A program made the position numbers and the translations under genes. A model generated the notes under the pieces. It did not search any database, had not been told where the DNA came from, and worked only from the letters and a program-made list of their open reading frames with translations. From Prevotella sp. (lineage in GTDB: Bacteria > Bacteroidota > Bacteroidia > Bacteroidales > Bacteroidaceae), in assembly GCA_017548275.1 (NCBI GenBank), contig JAFZAH010000023.1, positions 124,001 to 188,000 of the forward strand: a stretch of 64,000 nucleotides of DNA. The letters run 5' to 3'. This document shows positions 7,183 to 64,000 of the stretch, piece by piece; position 1 is the first letter of the stretch, and every line of letters starts with the position of its first letter.

Positions 7183-7229
7183 ATAGGATAAAGGGATTTG
7201 AGGTTAGATATCTTAAGGTTATAAGGCCT

Positions 7230-7301
7230 CCACGTTCAACGTTCCACGTTCCACGTTCCACGTTCAACATTCAACATTCCACGTTCCACGTTCAACGTTC
7301 A
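7230..7301. repeat. Heptamer tandem array (GTTCAAC / GTTCCAC / ATTCAAC), ~10 units
   Basis: About ten head-to-tail 7-nt units fill the gap between two convergent genes. The array runs into the 3' end of the AraC gene: its last two codons (Glu, Arg) and TGA stop are read from the repeat. The same heptamer family is at 12152, 33311 (opposite orientation), 39521 and inside the gene at 62683. Confidence 0.9.
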
Positions 7302-19587: not shown

Positions 19588-19600
19588 ATGGGTGGATAAA

Positions 19601-19627
19601 GTAGTTAAGGAAGTTAAAGAAGTTAAA
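19601..19627. repeat. 9-nt tandem array (GAAGTTAAA), 3 units
   Basis: Three 9-nt units lie between the TPR and DUF4292 genes; the reverse complement of the same unit forms the array at 32335. Confidence 0.75.
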
Positions 19628-19722
19628 GGGCAATACTCCAGTGGCGTTGGTTTTTAGGCTGCTAAAGACTTTAAGCAGTCTATATCGTCATCAATGGGGC
19701 TCACTCCATAAATATTCGGATT

Positions 19723-22358: not shown

Positions 22359-22371
22359 GAGCGTAGGTATT

Positions 22372-22434
22372 TCTAGACATTCTAGATGTTCTAGGTATTC
22401 TAGATGTTCTAGACCTTCTAGATATTCTAGGTAT
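22372..22434. repeat. 9-nt tandem array (TTCTAGANN), 7 units
   Basis: Seven head-to-tail 9-nt units, each with TCTAG, fill the gap between the convergent EnvC-like and M20 genes. Confidence 0.9.
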
Positions 22435-22451
22435 TGATAGGACACCTTAAG

Positions 22452-32334: not shown

Positions 32335-32370
32335 GTCTTTAACTTCTTTAACTTTCTTAAATTCTTTAAC
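32335..32370. repeat. 9-nt tandem array (TTCTTTAAC), 4 units
   Basis: Four 9-nt units lie before the helix-hairpin-helix gene; the unit is the reverse complement of that at 19601. A GCAAGGA-type 7-nt run lies just upstream (32265-32297). Confidence 0.75.
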
Positions 32371-32388
32371 TACCCTCAACCTTCCCCC

Positions 32389-33310: not shown

Positions 33311-33375
33311 GTTGAACATTGAACATTGAACGTTGAACATTGAACGTTGAACATTGAACATTGAACATTGAACAT
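33311..33375. repeat. Heptamer tandem array (GTTGAAC / ATTGAAC), 9 units
   Basis: Nine 7-nt units, the reverse complement of the array at 7230, directly follow the helix-hairpin-helix gene. Confidence 0.9.
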
Positions 33376-33400: not shown

Positions 33401-33505
33401 ACTATTGTCTGAACTCCTGAATTTCTGAACTCCAGACTCCTGAACTTCCCGTTAGATAACTATTGTCTAAACTCCTGAACTCCAGACTCCTAAACTCCTA
33501 AATAG
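33401..33505. repeat. CTCCTGAA-type low-complexity block with a ~58-nt direct duplication
   Basis: ACTATTGTCT begins at 33401 and again at 33459, each time followed by repeated GAACTCCTGA / ACTCCAGACTCC units. It fills the rest of the gap before the 33513 gene. Confidence 0.7.
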
Positions 33506-34501: not shown

Positions 34502-34574
34502 TCGGGATGAGGCGACTCGAACGCCCGACCCCTACGTCCCGAACGTAGTGCGCTACCAACTGCGCTACATCCCG
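34502..34574 (-). tRNA. tRNA-Pro, anticodon CGG
   Basis: On the minus strand the 73 nt fold as a complete cloverleaf: acceptor CGGGATG with CATCCCG, D arm GCGC/GCGC with AGTTGGTA, anticodon stem CTACG/CGTAG around TTCGGGA (anticodon CGG, G37), five-nt variable loop, and T arm GGGCG/CGCCT around TTCGAGT. The discriminator base is A. CCA is not encoded. It decodes CCG. A promoter lies directly upstream and a terminator downstream, so it is an independent unit between a lipoprotein gene and murF. Confidence 0.96.
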
Positions 34575-37929: not shown

Positions 37930-38937
37930 ATGGATTTAATAAAGCAAATCATTGAGCGTGCGAAGAGCAACAAACAACGCATCGTTCTTCCCGAGGCTAC
38001 AGAAGAGCGTACACTGAGAGCCGCCGACCGTGTGTTGGCAGAGGATGTGGCCGACCTGATACTCATCGGCAATCCCGACGAGATTCATCGTTTGGCAGCG
38101 GAGTGGGGACTGACCCACATCGACAAGGCCACATTGATAGACCCTGAGAATAACCCCAAGAGCGAAGTATATGCCCAATTGCTGGCCGAGTTGCGCAAGA
38201 AGAAAGGCATGACTATCGAGCAGGCCCGTGAACTGGTGAAAAACCCGCTTTATCTGGGTTGTATGATTATCAAGACCGAGGGCGCCGACGGGCAAATCTC
38301 TGGCGCGCTGAGCACTACGGGTGAGACACTGCGCCCTGCCCTGCAAATCATCAAATGCGCACCGGGCATCACCTGCGTGAGCGGTGCCATGCTGCTGTTG
38401 ACAAAGAAACCCGAGTTTGGCGAGAACGGCGTGCTTGTGGTCGGCGATGTGGCCGTCACTCCCATGCCCGATGCCGACCAGTTGTCGCAAATCGCCGTGT
38501 GTACCGCCCAGACAGCCAAGAGCGTGGCCGGGTTTGACGACCCGCGCGTGGCGATGCTCAGTTTCTCGACCAAAGGCAGTGCCACACACGAGGTGGTGGA
38601 CAAGGTCATCGAGGCCACACAGAAGGCTCGTGAACTGAATCCGATGCTGAAGATTGACGGCGAGTTGCAGGCTGATGCCGCTCTTGTTCCTTCAGTAGGC
38701 TCGAAGAAGGCACCGGGCAGCACCATCGCCGGCAAGGCCAACGTACTGGTGTTCCCCAACCTCGAGGTAGGTAATATCGCGTATAAACTGGTGCAGCGTC
38801 TCGGCGACGCCATCGCCATCGGCCCCATCCTGCAAGGTATCGCACGCCCGGTGAACGACCTCAGCCGCGGTTGCTCCGTCGATGACATCTACTATCTCGT
38901 CGCCATCACCGCCTGCCAAGCCATGGACGCTAAATAA
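37930..38937 (+). CDS. pta: Phosphate acetyltransferase
   Basis: This 335-residue enzyme interconverts acetyl-CoA and acetyl-phosphate. It is of the short type with only the PTA_PTB catalytic domain (starting IIERAKSNKQRIVLPEATEERTL in pieces; conserved VVGDVAVTPMPDADQLSQIA and AGKANVLVFPNLEVGNIAYK regions). ATG 37930 gives the normal N-terminus; a longer upstream frame overlaps cdaA. Normally ackA follows directly; here a GxxExxY cassette of about 560 bp separates them. Confidence 0.95.
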   Translation: MDLIKQIIERAKSNKQRIVLPEATEERTLRAADRVLAEDVADLILIGNPDEIHRLAAEWGLTHIDKATLIDPENNPKSEVYAQLLAELRKKKGMTIEQARELVKNPLYLGCMIIKTEGADGQISGALSTTGETLRPALQIIKCAPGITCVSGAMLLLTKKPEFGENGVLVVGDVAVTPMPDADQLSQIAVCTAQTAKSVAGFDDPRVAMLSFSTKGSATHEVVDKVIEATQKARELNPMLKIDGELQADAALVPSVGSKKAPGSTIAGKANVLVFPNLEVGNIAYKLVQRLGDAIAIGPILQGIARPVNDLSRGCSVDDIYYLVAITACQAMDAK

Positions 38938-38955
38938 TGATTTTTTAGGAAAGTA

Positions 38956-39518
38956 ATATTTCGGAAAGAAATTAGAATAATTAGCATAATTAAGACCAGA
39001 AATTGTATTATACACTTGATTCCTATAATAAAAGGAAATGAACAAACAAGAGTATAAAGATATTTACGATGTGGTGGGTGCCGCTATGGAGGTTCACAAG
39101 ACTCTCGGAAGAGGACTCTTTGAGCCAGTTTATCAGGAAGCACTTGCTATGGAAATGGCAAAAAGAGGGCTGACTGCTGAACGTGAAAAACAACTGCGCT
39201 TGTATTACAAAGGAGTGCAGATGGAAAAAACGTATTTCGCAGATTTTTATTACAAAGGAATAATTATCGAACTGAAATCAGCCGACAGTATCTGTTCTGA
39301 ACATCGTGCTCAATTGTTTAATTATATGCGCATAACAAAAACCTTCAAAGGGATATTAATTAATTTTGGCGAAAAAAGTCTTCGGGCAGAGCGCTATTTA
39401 TATCTTCCTGATGAAGATAATTTTGTTCTGTTGTCACAAGATAATTATAAAGACTACATCACTGAATAAAAAATTTTTGGATAATTATTTTAATTATTCT
39501 AATTTCTTTCTGAAAAAT
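38956..39518. mobile_element. Inverted-repeat cassette carrying a GxxExxY gene, between pta and ackA
   Basis: Segments 38956-38992 and 39482-39518 are inverted copies: 33 of 37 positions match and 20 (38964-38983 with 39491-39510) match without break. They enclose the 39038-39469 gene and nothing else. The interior is much more AT-rich than pta or ackA. No transposase is present and I see no clear target-site duplication. Calling it mobile is inference from the boundary repeats, the odd position and the composition. In RNA the two ends would form a long helix. Confidence 0.6.
39038..39469 (+). CDS. GxxExxY-family protein (PD-(D/E)xK nuclease fold)
   Basis: This 143-residue protein contains the family motif GLFEPVY (GxxExxY, about 26-32) after the helix DIYDVVGAAMEVHKTLG. 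A nuclease-like core follows: FADFYYKGIIIELKSAD, with Asp and the Glu-x-Lys pair of a PD-(D/E)xK site (about 69-83), and a final strand LINFG. The fold suggests metal-dependent nucleic-acid cleavage; no biochemical role is established for this family as far as I know. It is AT-rich, uses AAA/AAT/TAT codons unlike its neighbours, and is bounded by inverted repeats. The gene reads in the same direction as pta and ackA. Confidence 0.88.
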   Translation: MNKQEYKDIYDVVGAAMEVHKTLGRGLFEPVYQEALAMEMAKRGLTAEREKQLRLYYKGVQMEKTYFADFYYKGIIIELKSADSICSEHRAQLFNYMRITKTFKGILINFGEKSLRAERYLYLPDEDNFVLLSQDNYKDYITE

Positions 39519-39520
39519 AA

Positions 39521-39552
39521 CAATTCAACATTCGTAATTCAACATTCAACAT
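39521..39552. repeat. ATTCAAC heptamer run before ackA
   Basis: Three to four ATTCAAC-type units lie between the cassette end and the ackA start codon. Confidence 0.75.
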
Positions 39553-39559
39553 TATTCAT

Positions 39560-40750
39560 ATGAAAATTCTAGTATTAAATTGCGGTTCATCGTCTATCAA
39601 GTATGCCTTGTATGACATGGACACAAAAACAGTGATGACATCGGGCGGCGCAGAGCGCGTAGGACTTGATGGAGCATTTGTGAAAGTGAAACTGGCTAAT
39701 GGCGAGAAGAAACAGATTATGCACGACATACCCGAGCATACCGAGGGCGTGAAGTTCATCTTCTCACTGCTCACCGACCCCGAGATCGGTGTCATCAAAG
39801 ACCTGAAAGAGATTGACGCCGTGGGTCACCGTATGGTGCACGGAGGTGAAAAATTCAATAAGAGCGTCATCCTCACCGACGAGGTGCTCAAGGTGTTTGA
39901 GGAGTGCTCCGACCTCGCCCCGCTGCATAACCCCGCTAACTTGAAGGGTGTCAACGCCGTGAAGGAACTGATGCCGGGACTGACACAGGTGGGTGTGTTT
40001 GACACCGCTTTCCACCAGACCATGCCCCCGAAGGCTTATATGTATGCCATCCCGTACGAACTCTATGAGAAGTACGGCATCCGCCGATACGGATTCCACG
40101 GCACCAGCCACCGCTATGTTTCGGCACGTGCCTGCGAGTTCTTAGGCATCAAGGCTGAAGGCACCAAGATGGTGACTTGCCACGTGGGTAATGGCGGTTC
40201 CATCTGTGCTGTGAAAGACGGCAAATGCGTGGACACCTCCATGGGTCTCACTCCGCTCGAGGGCCTGATGATGGGTACCCGTGCCGGTGATATCGACGGC
40301 GGTGCCGTGACGTTTATCGAGAAGAAACTCGGTCTGGATGCCGACGGTATGTCCAACCTGCTCAATAAGAAGAGCGGTGTGGCTGGTCTGACCGGCGGCA
40401 AGAGCGACATGCGCGACGTGGAGCAGGCTGCCCGCGAAGGCGATGACCGTGCTCGTTTGGCACAGGAAATGTACTTCTATCGCATCAAAAAATACATCGG
40501 CGCATACGCTGCAGCCATGGGCGGACTCGATGTCATCGTGTTCACTGCCGGCGTGGGCGAGAATCAGGTAAGCATGCGTTCCGAGGTCTGTAAAGACATG
40601 GAGTTCTTGGGCGTGAAGTTCGACGAGGAGAAGAACAATGTGCGCGGCGAAGAGGCCGTCATCTCTGCCGACGACTCACGTGTCAAGGTTTTGGTCATAC
40701 CTACTGACGAGGAACTGATGATTGCCACCGACACGATGAATCTGTTGTAG
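39560..40750 (+). CDS. ackA: Acetate kinase
   Basis: This 396-residue ASKHA-fold enzyme makes ATP and acetate from acetyl-phosphate, completing the fermentative route begun by Pta. Signatures are VLNCGSSSIKYALYD at the N-terminus, YGFHGTSHRYVS, TCHVGNGGSICAVKDGK, MGLTPLEGLMMGTR and FTAGVGENQ. Length is normal. The start codon follows a short heptamer array, and the gene ends before a strong bidirectional terminator. Confidence 0.97.
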   Translation: MKILVLNCGSSSIKYALYDMDTKTVMTSGGAERVGLDGAFVKVKLANGEKKQIMHDIPEHTEGVKFIFSLLTDPEIGVIKDLKEIDAVGHRMVHGGEKFNKSVILTDEVLKVFEECSDLAPLHNPANLKGVNAVKELMPGLTQVGVFDTAFHQTMPPKAYMYAIPYELYEKYGIRRYGFHGTSHRYVSARACEFLGIKAEGTKMVTCHVGNGGSICAVKDGKCVDTSMGLTPLEGLMMGTRAGDIDGGAVTFIEKKLGLDADGMSNLLNKKSGVAGLTGGKSDMRDVEQAAREGDDRARLAQEMYFYRIKKYIGAYAAAMGGLDVIVFTAGVGENQVSMRSEVCKDMEFLGVKFDEEKNNVRGEEAVISADDSRVKVLVIPTDEELMIATDTMNLL

Positions 40751-40757
40751 ACATATT

Positions 40758-40792
40758 GGAGTGACAGGAGTGGAGGAGTGACAGGAGTGAAG
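40758..40792. repeat. GGAGTGACA tandem units
   Basis: Four 8-9-nt units follow the ackA stop codon. Confidence 0.65.
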
Positions 40793-50062: not shown

Positions 50063-50286
50063 TCTTATTTCTTTCCTAATCAAAATCCGCTAATCCGTTG
50101 TCTCTATGGATTAGGGTTTAGAGTTTAGGGTTTAGTGTCCTATTAGGGGAGTACTCTTTTGCTCTTTGCTCCTTTCCCTCTATCAATTACAATCCGTCTA
50201 ATCCGTCAAATCCGTTGTCTTTTTTTGTATTCGTAAAATTCGCTTAATTCGTAGTCGCAAATAAACGTCGGGTGGGTAGTGACTTC
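50063..50286. other. Gene-free spacer with degenerate short repeats
   Basis: The rest of the 314-nt gap holds a TTTAGGG-like run (50111-50137) and AATCCGT / TAATTCGTA-like units (50171-50260). No open frame or RNA fold is supported. Confidence 0.6.
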
Positions 50287-62682: not shown

Positions 62683-64000
62683 ATGAAGCATATCCATCTT
62701 ATATACACGCTCCTTTTCGGTGTGGCGGTCCTCTTGTTTTTCGGGTTGGCATATCCGAATCATCTGCATCATCAGGAGCAGTATCAACTGTTCCTCTTCG
62801 ACTGTGACTATGTGTGGGGTATTGTCAAACTCCCCGGTGGCGTCGCCGACTTGTTAGGCCGTTTTTGCACACAGTTCTTCCTTTATGCTTGGGTGGGCGC
62901 ACTGATTATAGCGGTTCTGCTCATGGCGGTGCAACTCTGGACGCTTCGCCTGTTCAATGTTCAACGTTCAACGTTCAATGTTCAACGTTCAACGTTCAAT
63001 GTTCAATGGTTCTATGGCCTGAGTTTTGTGCCTTCGTTCCTGCTTTGGCTCTTCCTGCTCGACGAGAATGCTCTGTTGGGTGGTGTATGGGCAGTCTTGC
63101 TCACCCTTCACGCCTCTTGGGCCTTCGACAAGTTGCCTGATGGTTGGTTGCGGCGCATTCTGCTCGTTGTCGCTGTTCCCGTACTCTATTGGATAGTGGG
63201 TCCCGTCTGTGTGTTGTTCTTCCTCCTGCAGATTTTCCAACGTTCTACTTCCAATAATGTTCAACGTTCAACGTTCAATAATGCCCAACGTCCAACTTCC
63301 AATAATGTTCAACGTTCAACGTTCAACGTTCAACGTATAATCTTGCTTGTCCTTTTGCTTGCCATGCCCTTCATCCTGTCTTGGCTCCCGGTATCCGCCC
63401 GTAGTCTGTGGACAGGCATCCATTATCACCGCTATCCGACAGAAACCCCGGTCCTCCTTTGGGCAGCGGTTTTGTCCGTCTTCGTCCTTGTTCTCATTGT
63501 TCAACGTTCAACGTCCAATGTTCAACGTTCAACGTTCAATGTTCAACGTCCATTGTTTTTTGCTCTGGTGGCTGTTTGTATGGGATTCTTCGTCTGGAAG
63601 AACAGCAATTTCAAGGCGGAAAAGGTGATGCAATATGATTTCATGGCCTGTCACCAGCAATGGAACCGCATTATCGGTACCATTAATGCTGACAAACCGA
63701 ACAACCAGATAGGTGTCACGGTGCAGAATCTCGCCTTGGCAATGCGCGGTCTGCTCGGCGACCACATGTTCGAATTCAACCAGAACGGCACCTTAGGCCT
63801 TTTACCCGATGTCGAGCGCGATGCGACCAGCCCTATGCCCACAGCCGAGGCGTTCTACCAGTTAGGTCTGGTGAATGTGGCACAACGGTCGGTGTTCGAG
63901 GCTCAGGAGGCCATTCTTGACTTCCAAAAGAGTGCCCGCTGTTACAAACGGCTGGCGCAGACCAACCTCATCAACGGCAACTACGATGTGGCACGCAAAT
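62683..64000 (+). CDS. Second DUF6057-like membrane protein, with repeat inserts (runs off window end)
   Basis: An ATG at 62683 opens a frame that stays open for 439 codons to the window edge. The start (MKHIHLIYTLLFGVAVLLFF) and the alternation of helices and loops match the paralogue at 59310, with QEQYQLFLFDCDY in the place of its N-terminal periplasmic loop. Three blocks of the heptamer GTTCAAC/GTTCAAT are translated in frame as Q-R-S-T-F-N-V repeats (residues about 91-108, 186-218, 273-288), each in a loop just after a hydrophobic helix. Residues ~310-439 begin the soluble half (NADKPNNQIGVTVQNLALAM). It may be functional, or drifting after repeat insertion. Confidence 0.75.
   Translation, partial: MKHIHLIYTLLFGVAVLLFFGLAYPNHLHHQEQYQLFLFDCDYVWGIVKLPGGVADLLGRFCTQFFLYAWVGALIIAVLLMAVQLWTLRLFNVQRSTFNVQRSTFNVQWFYGLSFVPSFLLWLFLLDENALLGGVWAVLLTLHASWAFDKLPDGWLRRILLVVAVPVLYWIVGPVCVLFFLLQIFQRSTSNNVQRSTFNNAQRPTSNNVQRSTFNVQRIILLVLLLAMPFILSWLPVSARSLWTGIHYHRYPTETPVLLWAAVLSVFVLVLIVQRSTSNVQRSTFNVQRPLFFALVAVCMGFFVWKNSNFKAEKVMQYDFMACHQQWNRIIGTINADKPNNQIGVTVQNLALAMRGLLGDHMFEFNQNGTLGLLPDVERDATSPMPTAEAFYQLGLVNVAQRSVFEAQEAILDFQKSARCYKRLAQTNLINGNYDVARK
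62952..63007 (+). repeat. Heptamer array inside the second DUF6057-like gene, block 1
   Basis: Eight contiguous GTTCAAT/GTTCAAC units. Three units (21 nt) encode seven residues, so the frame is kept only because the whole insert is a multiple of three with the flanks. Confidence 0.92.
63237..63336 (+). repeat. Heptamer array inside the second DUF6057-like gene, block 2
   Basis: Clean units at 63259-63279 and 63307-63334 are separated by degenerate copies (CCAATAAT / CCCAACGTCCAAC); a ~48-nt longer-period duplication is visible. Confidence 0.85.
63499..63554 (+). repeat. Heptamer array inside the second DUF6057-like gene, block 3
   Basis: Eight units, two with one base changed (GTCCAAT at 63513, GTCCATT at 63548). 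Confidence 0.9.

Follow-up and report, generated by a model that had tools for sequence, protein, structure and literature searches.

The stretch of DNA analysed here (the window) comprises 64,000 nt of the genome of Prevotella sp. GCA_017548275.1 (G000), and it holds a one-gene cassette between two host genes which we take to be pta and ackA, both names being assumed from the original prediction and the sequence, that of pta without a family search (Table 1). An inverted repeat around a single GxxExxY gene had been proposed at this site, and it was recovered as two arms of 40 nt that are 88% complementary and have 489 nt between them. Local alignment of one non-coding spacer with the other gave a score of 58, a value reached by none of 2000 dinucleotide shuffles (maximum: 37), and the GxxExxY gene is the sole ORF of at least 80 aa that lies wholly within the spacer. 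Extended to ~39004, the left arm resembles a dispersed repeat of ~45 nt (start: TTTCGGAAAGAAATT at 38959). An Rfam search of the whole window at gathering score returned only a tRNA (34502-34574), and the arms were covered by no family. The ATTCAAC array beside the right arm is possibly the leftover of another insertion; compared by eye, its letters appear to resemble the arms of an IVP (PF05635) element which occupies the same place in the relative L086. The 9-nt units of the arms, their dispersed copies and a second protein family with the same layout, all described below, go beyond the original prediction.

Table 1. Features of the pta-ackA spacer and its flanking genes, in window coordinates.
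Feature	Position	Strand	Basis
pta, upstream host gene	37930..38937	+	ORF reading
Left arm of inverted repeat, 9-nt units (TRF 38970-38992)	38953..38992	+	
GxxExxY / PDDEXK_3 protein, 143 aa, D69 E78 K80 Q92	39038..39469	+	
Right arm of inverted repeat, 9-nt units (TRF 39482-39504)	39482..39521	-	
Short array of ATTCAAC (7-nt) units, abuts right arm	39523..39553	.	TRF
ackA, downstream host gene	39560..40750	+	ORF reading

The window protein is a member of the GxxExxY family by profile score above cut-off, with 125.1 bits against TIGR04256 (GxxExxY; cut-off: 35) and 119.3 bits against PF13366 (cut-off: 22). A Pfam scan of this only protein of the cassette returned PDDEXK_3 alone, with no transposase family and no Y1/HUH family. 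D69 is kept in all 130 aligned proteins, E78 in 129 and K80 in 128; all three are present in the window protein, and from the PD-(D/E)xK motif we take them to be the catalytic residues. An AlphaFold2 model of the protein (20 sequences) has a mean pLDDT of 93, and, searched against PDB sequences, the family profile matched no chain at E ≤ 1. The median dN/dS was 0.10 at the second shared site (28 of 78 pairs usable, 50 saturated), which is a rough value given a median dS of 2.0, and 0.11 at pta-ackA, from the single usable pair of 28. The GxxExxY active-site motif is intact and under purifying selection. G000 carries four PF13366 genes, of which three have inverted arms of differing sequence and one (L004) has none; this armless copy (L004 1453-1932) has an altered ExK motif, with VDLL instead of VELK. 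Another GxxExxY site, L002, lies between genes which we take by sequence to be korA and korB. PF13366 is present in 96 of 150 genus genomes and in 101 of 198 sampled phylum genomes (E ≤ 0.001). To our knowledge, neither PF13366 nor PF05635 has an established function. In the full-text literature, from which subscription papers are mostly absent so that an earlier description is possible, no account of GxxExxY/PDDEXK_3 genes with inverted repeats was met, and the available part of PMC8934634 on GxxExxY does not speak of repeats.

We read 49 pta-ackA spacers from 142 genomes with an ackA match, leaving out L091, which has no pta. Twenty of them (L115-L134) had been picked, seven for a PF13366/PF05635 hit beside ackA and the others by hand, so that the shares of the spacer types are not those of a random sample: 8 hold a GxxExxY gene, 9 a PF05635-type gene of one of two subtypes, 10 are gene-less with a length of 74-187 nt, and 22 are very short (15-43 nt). 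Repeats were present at every GxxExxY locus compared at this site (8/8). All nine PF05635-type genes match the family profile built here, and three were verified with Pfam. Five of the ten gene-less spacers score ≥ 30 as inverted repeats; L112, with CACGGATTA-type units, scores 29. The gene-less and short spacers show that cassette-free sites, which the original prediction had asked for in relatives, do exist, though none is a clean empty site. Occupied and empty pairs are at most ~87-90% alike in flanking coding DNA, so that no junction is readable, and no strain-level gain or loss, target-site duplication or exact insertion boundary was found among the species compared, which are too divergent.

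Seven of the gene-less spacers (L087, L094, L102, L104, L107, L127 and L128; 128-187 nt) carry a C-rich/G-rich pair (CCCCTCCC / GGGAGGGG-like), a further repeat type at pta-ackA, of which four score ≥ 30 as inverted repeats. Element-free short spacers (e.g. L106, L108, L095 and L114) show repeated units of 7-9 nt in direct order; the short spacers could be single arms left behind.

The inverted-arm layout is common among GxxExxY genes at other loci. Within the genus, 43 of 55 loci with enough flank have an arm score ≥ 30 and the other 12 are without a clear repeat. This score was reached by 4.8% of 809 arm swaps between loci and by none of 111 control ORFs (six-frame, ≥ 200 aa, some surely spurious). 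Autocorrelation over the 43 arm sets was 0.42 at lag 9 (shuffled: 0.29) and 0.36 at lag 18, with 9 as the best lag in 24 sets. The letters of the arms vary from locus to locus, while the two arms within one locus match. As to the question raised in the original prediction, whether the repeats travel with the gene, the architecture is shared between loci and the letters differ. In the phylum sample, 19 of 29 loci passed and 10 were without a clear repeat (swaps: 5.9% of 561), and the period was blunter (0.32-0.36 at lags 8-12, no shuffle comparison).

A wider set of 36 genome-contig loci, many from Prevotella or Flavobacterium and hence non-independent, gave 30 passes among 35 scored ORFs (without a swap control; three proteins shared with the genus set). 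These passes come from Bacteroidota (including Flavobacterium and Hymenobacter), Fibrobacteres and Chloroflexi records, and their arms are mostly of three units, e.g. ACACAGAG or CATATAAG repeats. Loci L165 (Prevotella), L170 (Planctomycetota, two ORFs), L171 (Kiritimatiellales) and L181 (Armatimonadetes) did not reach the threshold; no ORF was obtained for L189 or L190. GxxExxY relatives were found in 8 plasmid records; among the 6 plasmid loci examined, arms scored ≥ 30 in two (L191: 45; L195: 36) and four were without a clear repeat. Thirteen pattern matches in viral contigs included no relative by tblastn. In the Sphingomonas parapaucimobilis plasmid record (L196), fabD and fabG enclose a GxxExxY gene for which a three-unit array was seen on the upstream side only, and one arm may have been lost. 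At L008, L021 and L040, GxxExxY genes lie inside tandem arrays of gene-less palindromic units (~65 nt at L008).

The same layout is found around PF05635 genes, a family named for the proteins of 23S rRNA intervening sequences (IVP), which is present in 131 of 150 genus genomes (E ≤ 0.001; 120 above cut-off) and in 157 of 198 sampled phylum genomes (E ≤ 0.001). Inverted arms flank 26 of 30 genus PF05635 loci (swaps: 5.3% of 437), with an autocorrelation of 0.58 at lag 8 (shuffled: 0.30) and 8 as the best lag in 17 of the 26. In the phylum sample 16 of 30 loci have arms (swaps: 1.7% of 584), with autocorrelations of 0.47 at lag 7 and 0.44 at lag 8. Within the genus, the unit period sets the two families apart, at ~9 nt for GxxExxY versus ~8 nt for PF05635. 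The sequence GAGTTNAGACAATAG, with which certain PF05635-type arms finish on their inner side, occurs (1 mismatch) at 105 sites in G000, against 1 for the control. On the literature side, the available part of PMC5524665 lists among phage elements a four helix bundle protein whose neighbours are guanylate kinase and an adenylyltransferase, and it mentions no repeats.

Gene-less copies of the window arm are dispersed in the same genome. The arm core GAAATTAGAATAATTANNATAATTA (≤ 3 mismatches) was found at 24 sites in G000, 22 of them beyond the cassette, and the reversed pattern at none. Eight of the 22 copies, in 6 regions, were examined: none lies within an ORF of ≥ 100 aa, no GxxExxY or IVP ORF was found at their loci, and by eye they are alike to the window arm over ~45 nt. 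The copy at L305 is a gene-less inverted hairpin of window arms with 5 nt between the cores, and those at L309-L311 form a direct array with a spacing of 110 nt. Across the genus, window-type arms (≤ 2 mismatches) occur in 18 of 150 genomes, namely in 6 of the 8 with a window-type gene at pta-ackA versus 12 of the 142 others (p = 3e-5), some of which may carry such a gene unseen. Both matches in G148 are the cassette arms themselves, and those in G023 form a pair, separated by 517 nt, at a different locus.

Arrays of two unit types other than that of the window arm were also counted by exact pattern (CACAGA x3 and ACGAATT x3) in the 150 genus genomes, the counts per genome taking in the arms of gene-bearing copies. 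CACAGA x3 was present in 49 genomes and ACGAATT x3 in 44, with up to 123 arrays per genome. Either type occurs in 60 of 96 genomes with PF13366 versus 9 of 54 without (OR: 8.3; p = 6e-8), these genomes being phylogenetically non-independent and their completeness and gene absences being those of MAG-quality assemblies. A logistic model that also took in Y1 (PF01797), PF05635, the AckA clade and genome completeness gave likelihood-ratio p-values of 8e-7 for PF13366, 0.03 for Y1 and 0.52 for PF05635. Within the two AckA clades (the larger takes in 8 genomes that have no AckA match), the counts with versus without PF13366 were 48/67 versus 7/34 (p = 2e-6) and 12/29 versus 2/20 (p = 0.02). At a completeness of ≥ 90%, CACAGA arrays were found in 20 of 43 genomes with PF13366 versus 1 of 27 without, and ACGAATT arrays in 12 of 43 versus 2 of 27 (p = 0.06), which is weak alone. 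Taken singly, Y1 was associated with CACAGA (p = 0.013) and with ACGAATT (p = 0.003).

Of the CACAGA arrays, 25 were examined, each from a different genome and in a locus of 1.5-3.0 kb. No GxxExxY or IVP ORF lies in any of these loci; an inverted partner stands within 250 nt of 11 arrays, and the other 14 have none within this distance. The array unit is often the arm unit of the genome's own genes (G087, G130, G138, G001 and G041); G028, G037 and G044, with CACAGA-like arms and no CACAGA array, do not match in this way.

Arms and proteins diverge together. Likeness of arms correlated with likeness of proteins for GxxExxY (r = 0.34, permutation p = 0.0005; 101 elements, 174 of 5050 pairs dropped as same-site) and for IVP (r = 0.45; 60 elements, 168 of 1770 pairs dropped), a co-divergence which is partly common descent. 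Similar genes with similar arms were found at different sites (L007/L012 versus L008, L021 versus L043, L040 versus L052). At a given site, the two arms of a GxxExxY element are closer to each other than to those of other species, with values of 0.91 within elements versus 0.78 between species at pta-ackA (8 elements) and 0.89 versus 0.83 and 0.82 at the second shared site (13 elements), whereas 5 IVP elements at pta-ackA gave 0.88 versus 0.92 and 0.90, i.e. no concerted change; the within-element values are inflated, since it was the match between the two arms of an element that set the arm borders. Such joint change of the arms resembles RNA covariation and is compatible, too, with a unit recognised as DNA or with conversion between arms.

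By analogy with REP-RAYT and REPIN systems, the cassette probably belongs to a comparable partnership of gene and repeats, in which a PD-(D/E)xK nuclease would replace the Y1 tyrosine transposase. On this reading, the cassette is the copy that bears the gene within a family of dispersed extragenic repeats: a ~45-nt repeat of 9-nt units stands in inverted orientation on either side of a GxxExxY nuclease, and elsewhere in the genome the repeat is found gene-less, as a single copy, a direct array or an inverted hairpin pair. The protein would recognise the repeated unit as DNA and would cut or nick at the arms; gene-bearing and gene-less copies would be moved or copied into intergenic DNA, and most would land behind a transcribed gene and in its sense, a position in which the host may tolerate them. 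The fold of the nuclease, its conservation, its co-occurrence with the arrays and its co-divergence with the arms suggest that it reads and cuts the unit, and we infer that the protein binds or cuts the repeats and thereby spreads them. The idea of a minimal selfish or domesticated element with a nuclease-like protein, one of two readings in the original prediction, is supported by the spacers that are cassette-free or otherwise filled, the tie between repeats and gene and the dispersed gene-less copies.

RAYT genes are described as having, in every case, an inverted REP on each side, while REPs that lack the gene occur at other places (PMC2817692), and REP doublets are known as REPINs (PMC3116915). 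The cassette shares with REP-RAYT, REPIN and BIME systems a gene between two inverted extragenic repeats and a repeat that is dispersed gene-less, alone or in inverted pairs, and in both the repeat and the protein co-diverge (for REP-RAYT: PMC2817692 and PMC3116915). It differs in its protein, which is of the PD-(D/E)xK type (PF13366) where RAYT is Y1/HUH, and in its arms, which are tandem 9-nt units where a REP is one palindrome headed by GT(A/G)G, a head that is absent from the arm copies. The numbers also differ, with 1-123 exact-match arrays per unit type per positive genome versus hundreds of REPs. Because enzyme class and repeat structure differ, the cassette is not a member of the REP-RAYT systems, and it would work like one. 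With MITEs and insertion sequences it has in common inverted ends, gene-less copies and presence or absence at a site; unlike them, it has no match to a transposase family, its ends vary among elements, and no target-site duplication was established.

A quite improbable alternative, in our judgement, is an element that acts at the RNA level in the manner of the intervening sequences of 23S rRNA, whose arms would pair in the pta-ackA mRNA so that RNase III removes the cassette and the insertion into the operon becomes tolerable. Such intervening sequences likewise have a single small ORF between inverted repeats that interrupts a transcribed unit, and their own family, PF05635, is found in the same layout, at pta-ackA in relatives; in Coxiella, the available part of PMC4990558 describes a 28-bp terminal stem which RNase III cuts in vitro. 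The cassette differs in lying between pta and ackA, outside any rRNA gene, in encoding a PF13366 protein and not an S23/IVP protein (PF05635), and in arms with no sign of selected RNA pairing. The helix between the cassette ends was predicted to form, as had been claimed (-154.2 kcal/mol; z: -5.5; 20 shuffles), so that cutting by RNase III could occur. The companion claim that the element is cut out of the operon mRNA was not supported, since G-U was not preferred over A-C: GxxExxY arms have 166 G-U versus 157 A-C mismatches (99 elements of 130 candidates; p = 0.66), and IVP arms, on the coding strand, have 52 versus 101 (60 elements of 82; p = 9e-5), an A-C excess that possibly comes from selection near the start codon. 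The positive control of this comparison, tRNA stems, had 2 usable tRNAs (4 G-U, 0 A-C), which is too few. With no G-U excess between the arms, RNA pairing is not visibly selected, which argues against excision as RNA, as do the gene-less copies dispersed between genes, including the CACAGA arrays without an inverted partner. Among 147 elements whose upstream neighbour is known (156 examined; three proteins in two sets; neighbour strands by simple ORF calling), 136 share its strand, which would suit an RNA-level element, but ordinary operon genes may share this bias.

The same sense orientation, together with the purifying selection on the protein, is what an ordinary host gene of the acetate-pathway operon with a terminator-like or mRNA-stabilising repeat would show. 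This explanation is very improbable given the mixed occupants of the 49 pta-ackA spacers, on which a host-operon function was rejected, and given that GxxExxY genes adjoin unrelated genes at other loci. It is also unlikely, though it has more in its favour, that something else spreads the repeats, be it a RAYT or another transposase, slippage or recombination, with GxxExxY and IVP genes as selfish hitch-hikers or as small defence or toxin-like genes which profit from repeat-flanked sites. Two unrelated protein families share the one layout; arrays occur even where no PF13366 gene was detected, in 9 of 54 such genomes (among them G081, 96% complete); Y1 shows a weak association; and L014 and L035, in the same genome, share a gene of 379 bp at 99.5% identity, the arms around it being rearranged. 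Against a passenger role, the association of arrays with PF13366 exceeds that with Y1 and with PF05635, G075 and G094 have 20 and 16 CACAGA arrays with no Y1 gene detected, the arm letters co-diverge with the protein, and the unit period depends on the family (9 versus 8 nt in the genus).

If the REP-like reading of the cassette is true, a restriction-type nuclease fold would run such a system, and the link to dispersed repeats would give PF13366 and PF05635 a testable job. A wider version, which we regard as conceivable but rather doubtful, is that GxxExxY and the four-helix IVP proteins of PF05635 are two founders of a new repeat-mobilising class, each reading its own unit (~9 nt for the one, ~8 nt for the other) within inverted arrays and spreading gene-bearing and gene-less copies without a Y1 or DDE transposase, and that the 23S rRNA intervening sequences are PF05635 elements landed in rRNA. 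The repeat link would thereby offer an origin for these intervening sequences, and part of the intergenic tandem-unit DNA in these genomes may be accounted for.

Several further arrays were recorded. In the window, two adjacent arrays of GxxExxY-type units (AATCCGTCA; AATTCG-rich) lie at 50191-50215 and ~50228-50255 with no gene between them, and the nonamer TTCTAGATA is repeated seven times at 22371-22435 (TRF). Single gene-less arrays of 8-9-nt units, similar to PF05635 arms, are located at 33409-33446, 33467-33502, 32336-32371, 19597-19628 and 40758-40790, some of them adjoining GACAATAGT- or GACATTAGT-like letters. The arrays at 7229-7301, 33312-33375, 62951-63017 and 63238-63549 are built of 7-nt units (ACGTTCA, TTGAACA, GTTCAAC) and resemble by eye the arms of RSGTSIGAN-subtype PF05635 elements (L086). 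Outside the window, at L139 (G094:C4), PF05635 genes stand amid GTTCAAAG-type arrays which are broken by many tiny hairpins like GGCGGCAAAGCCGC.
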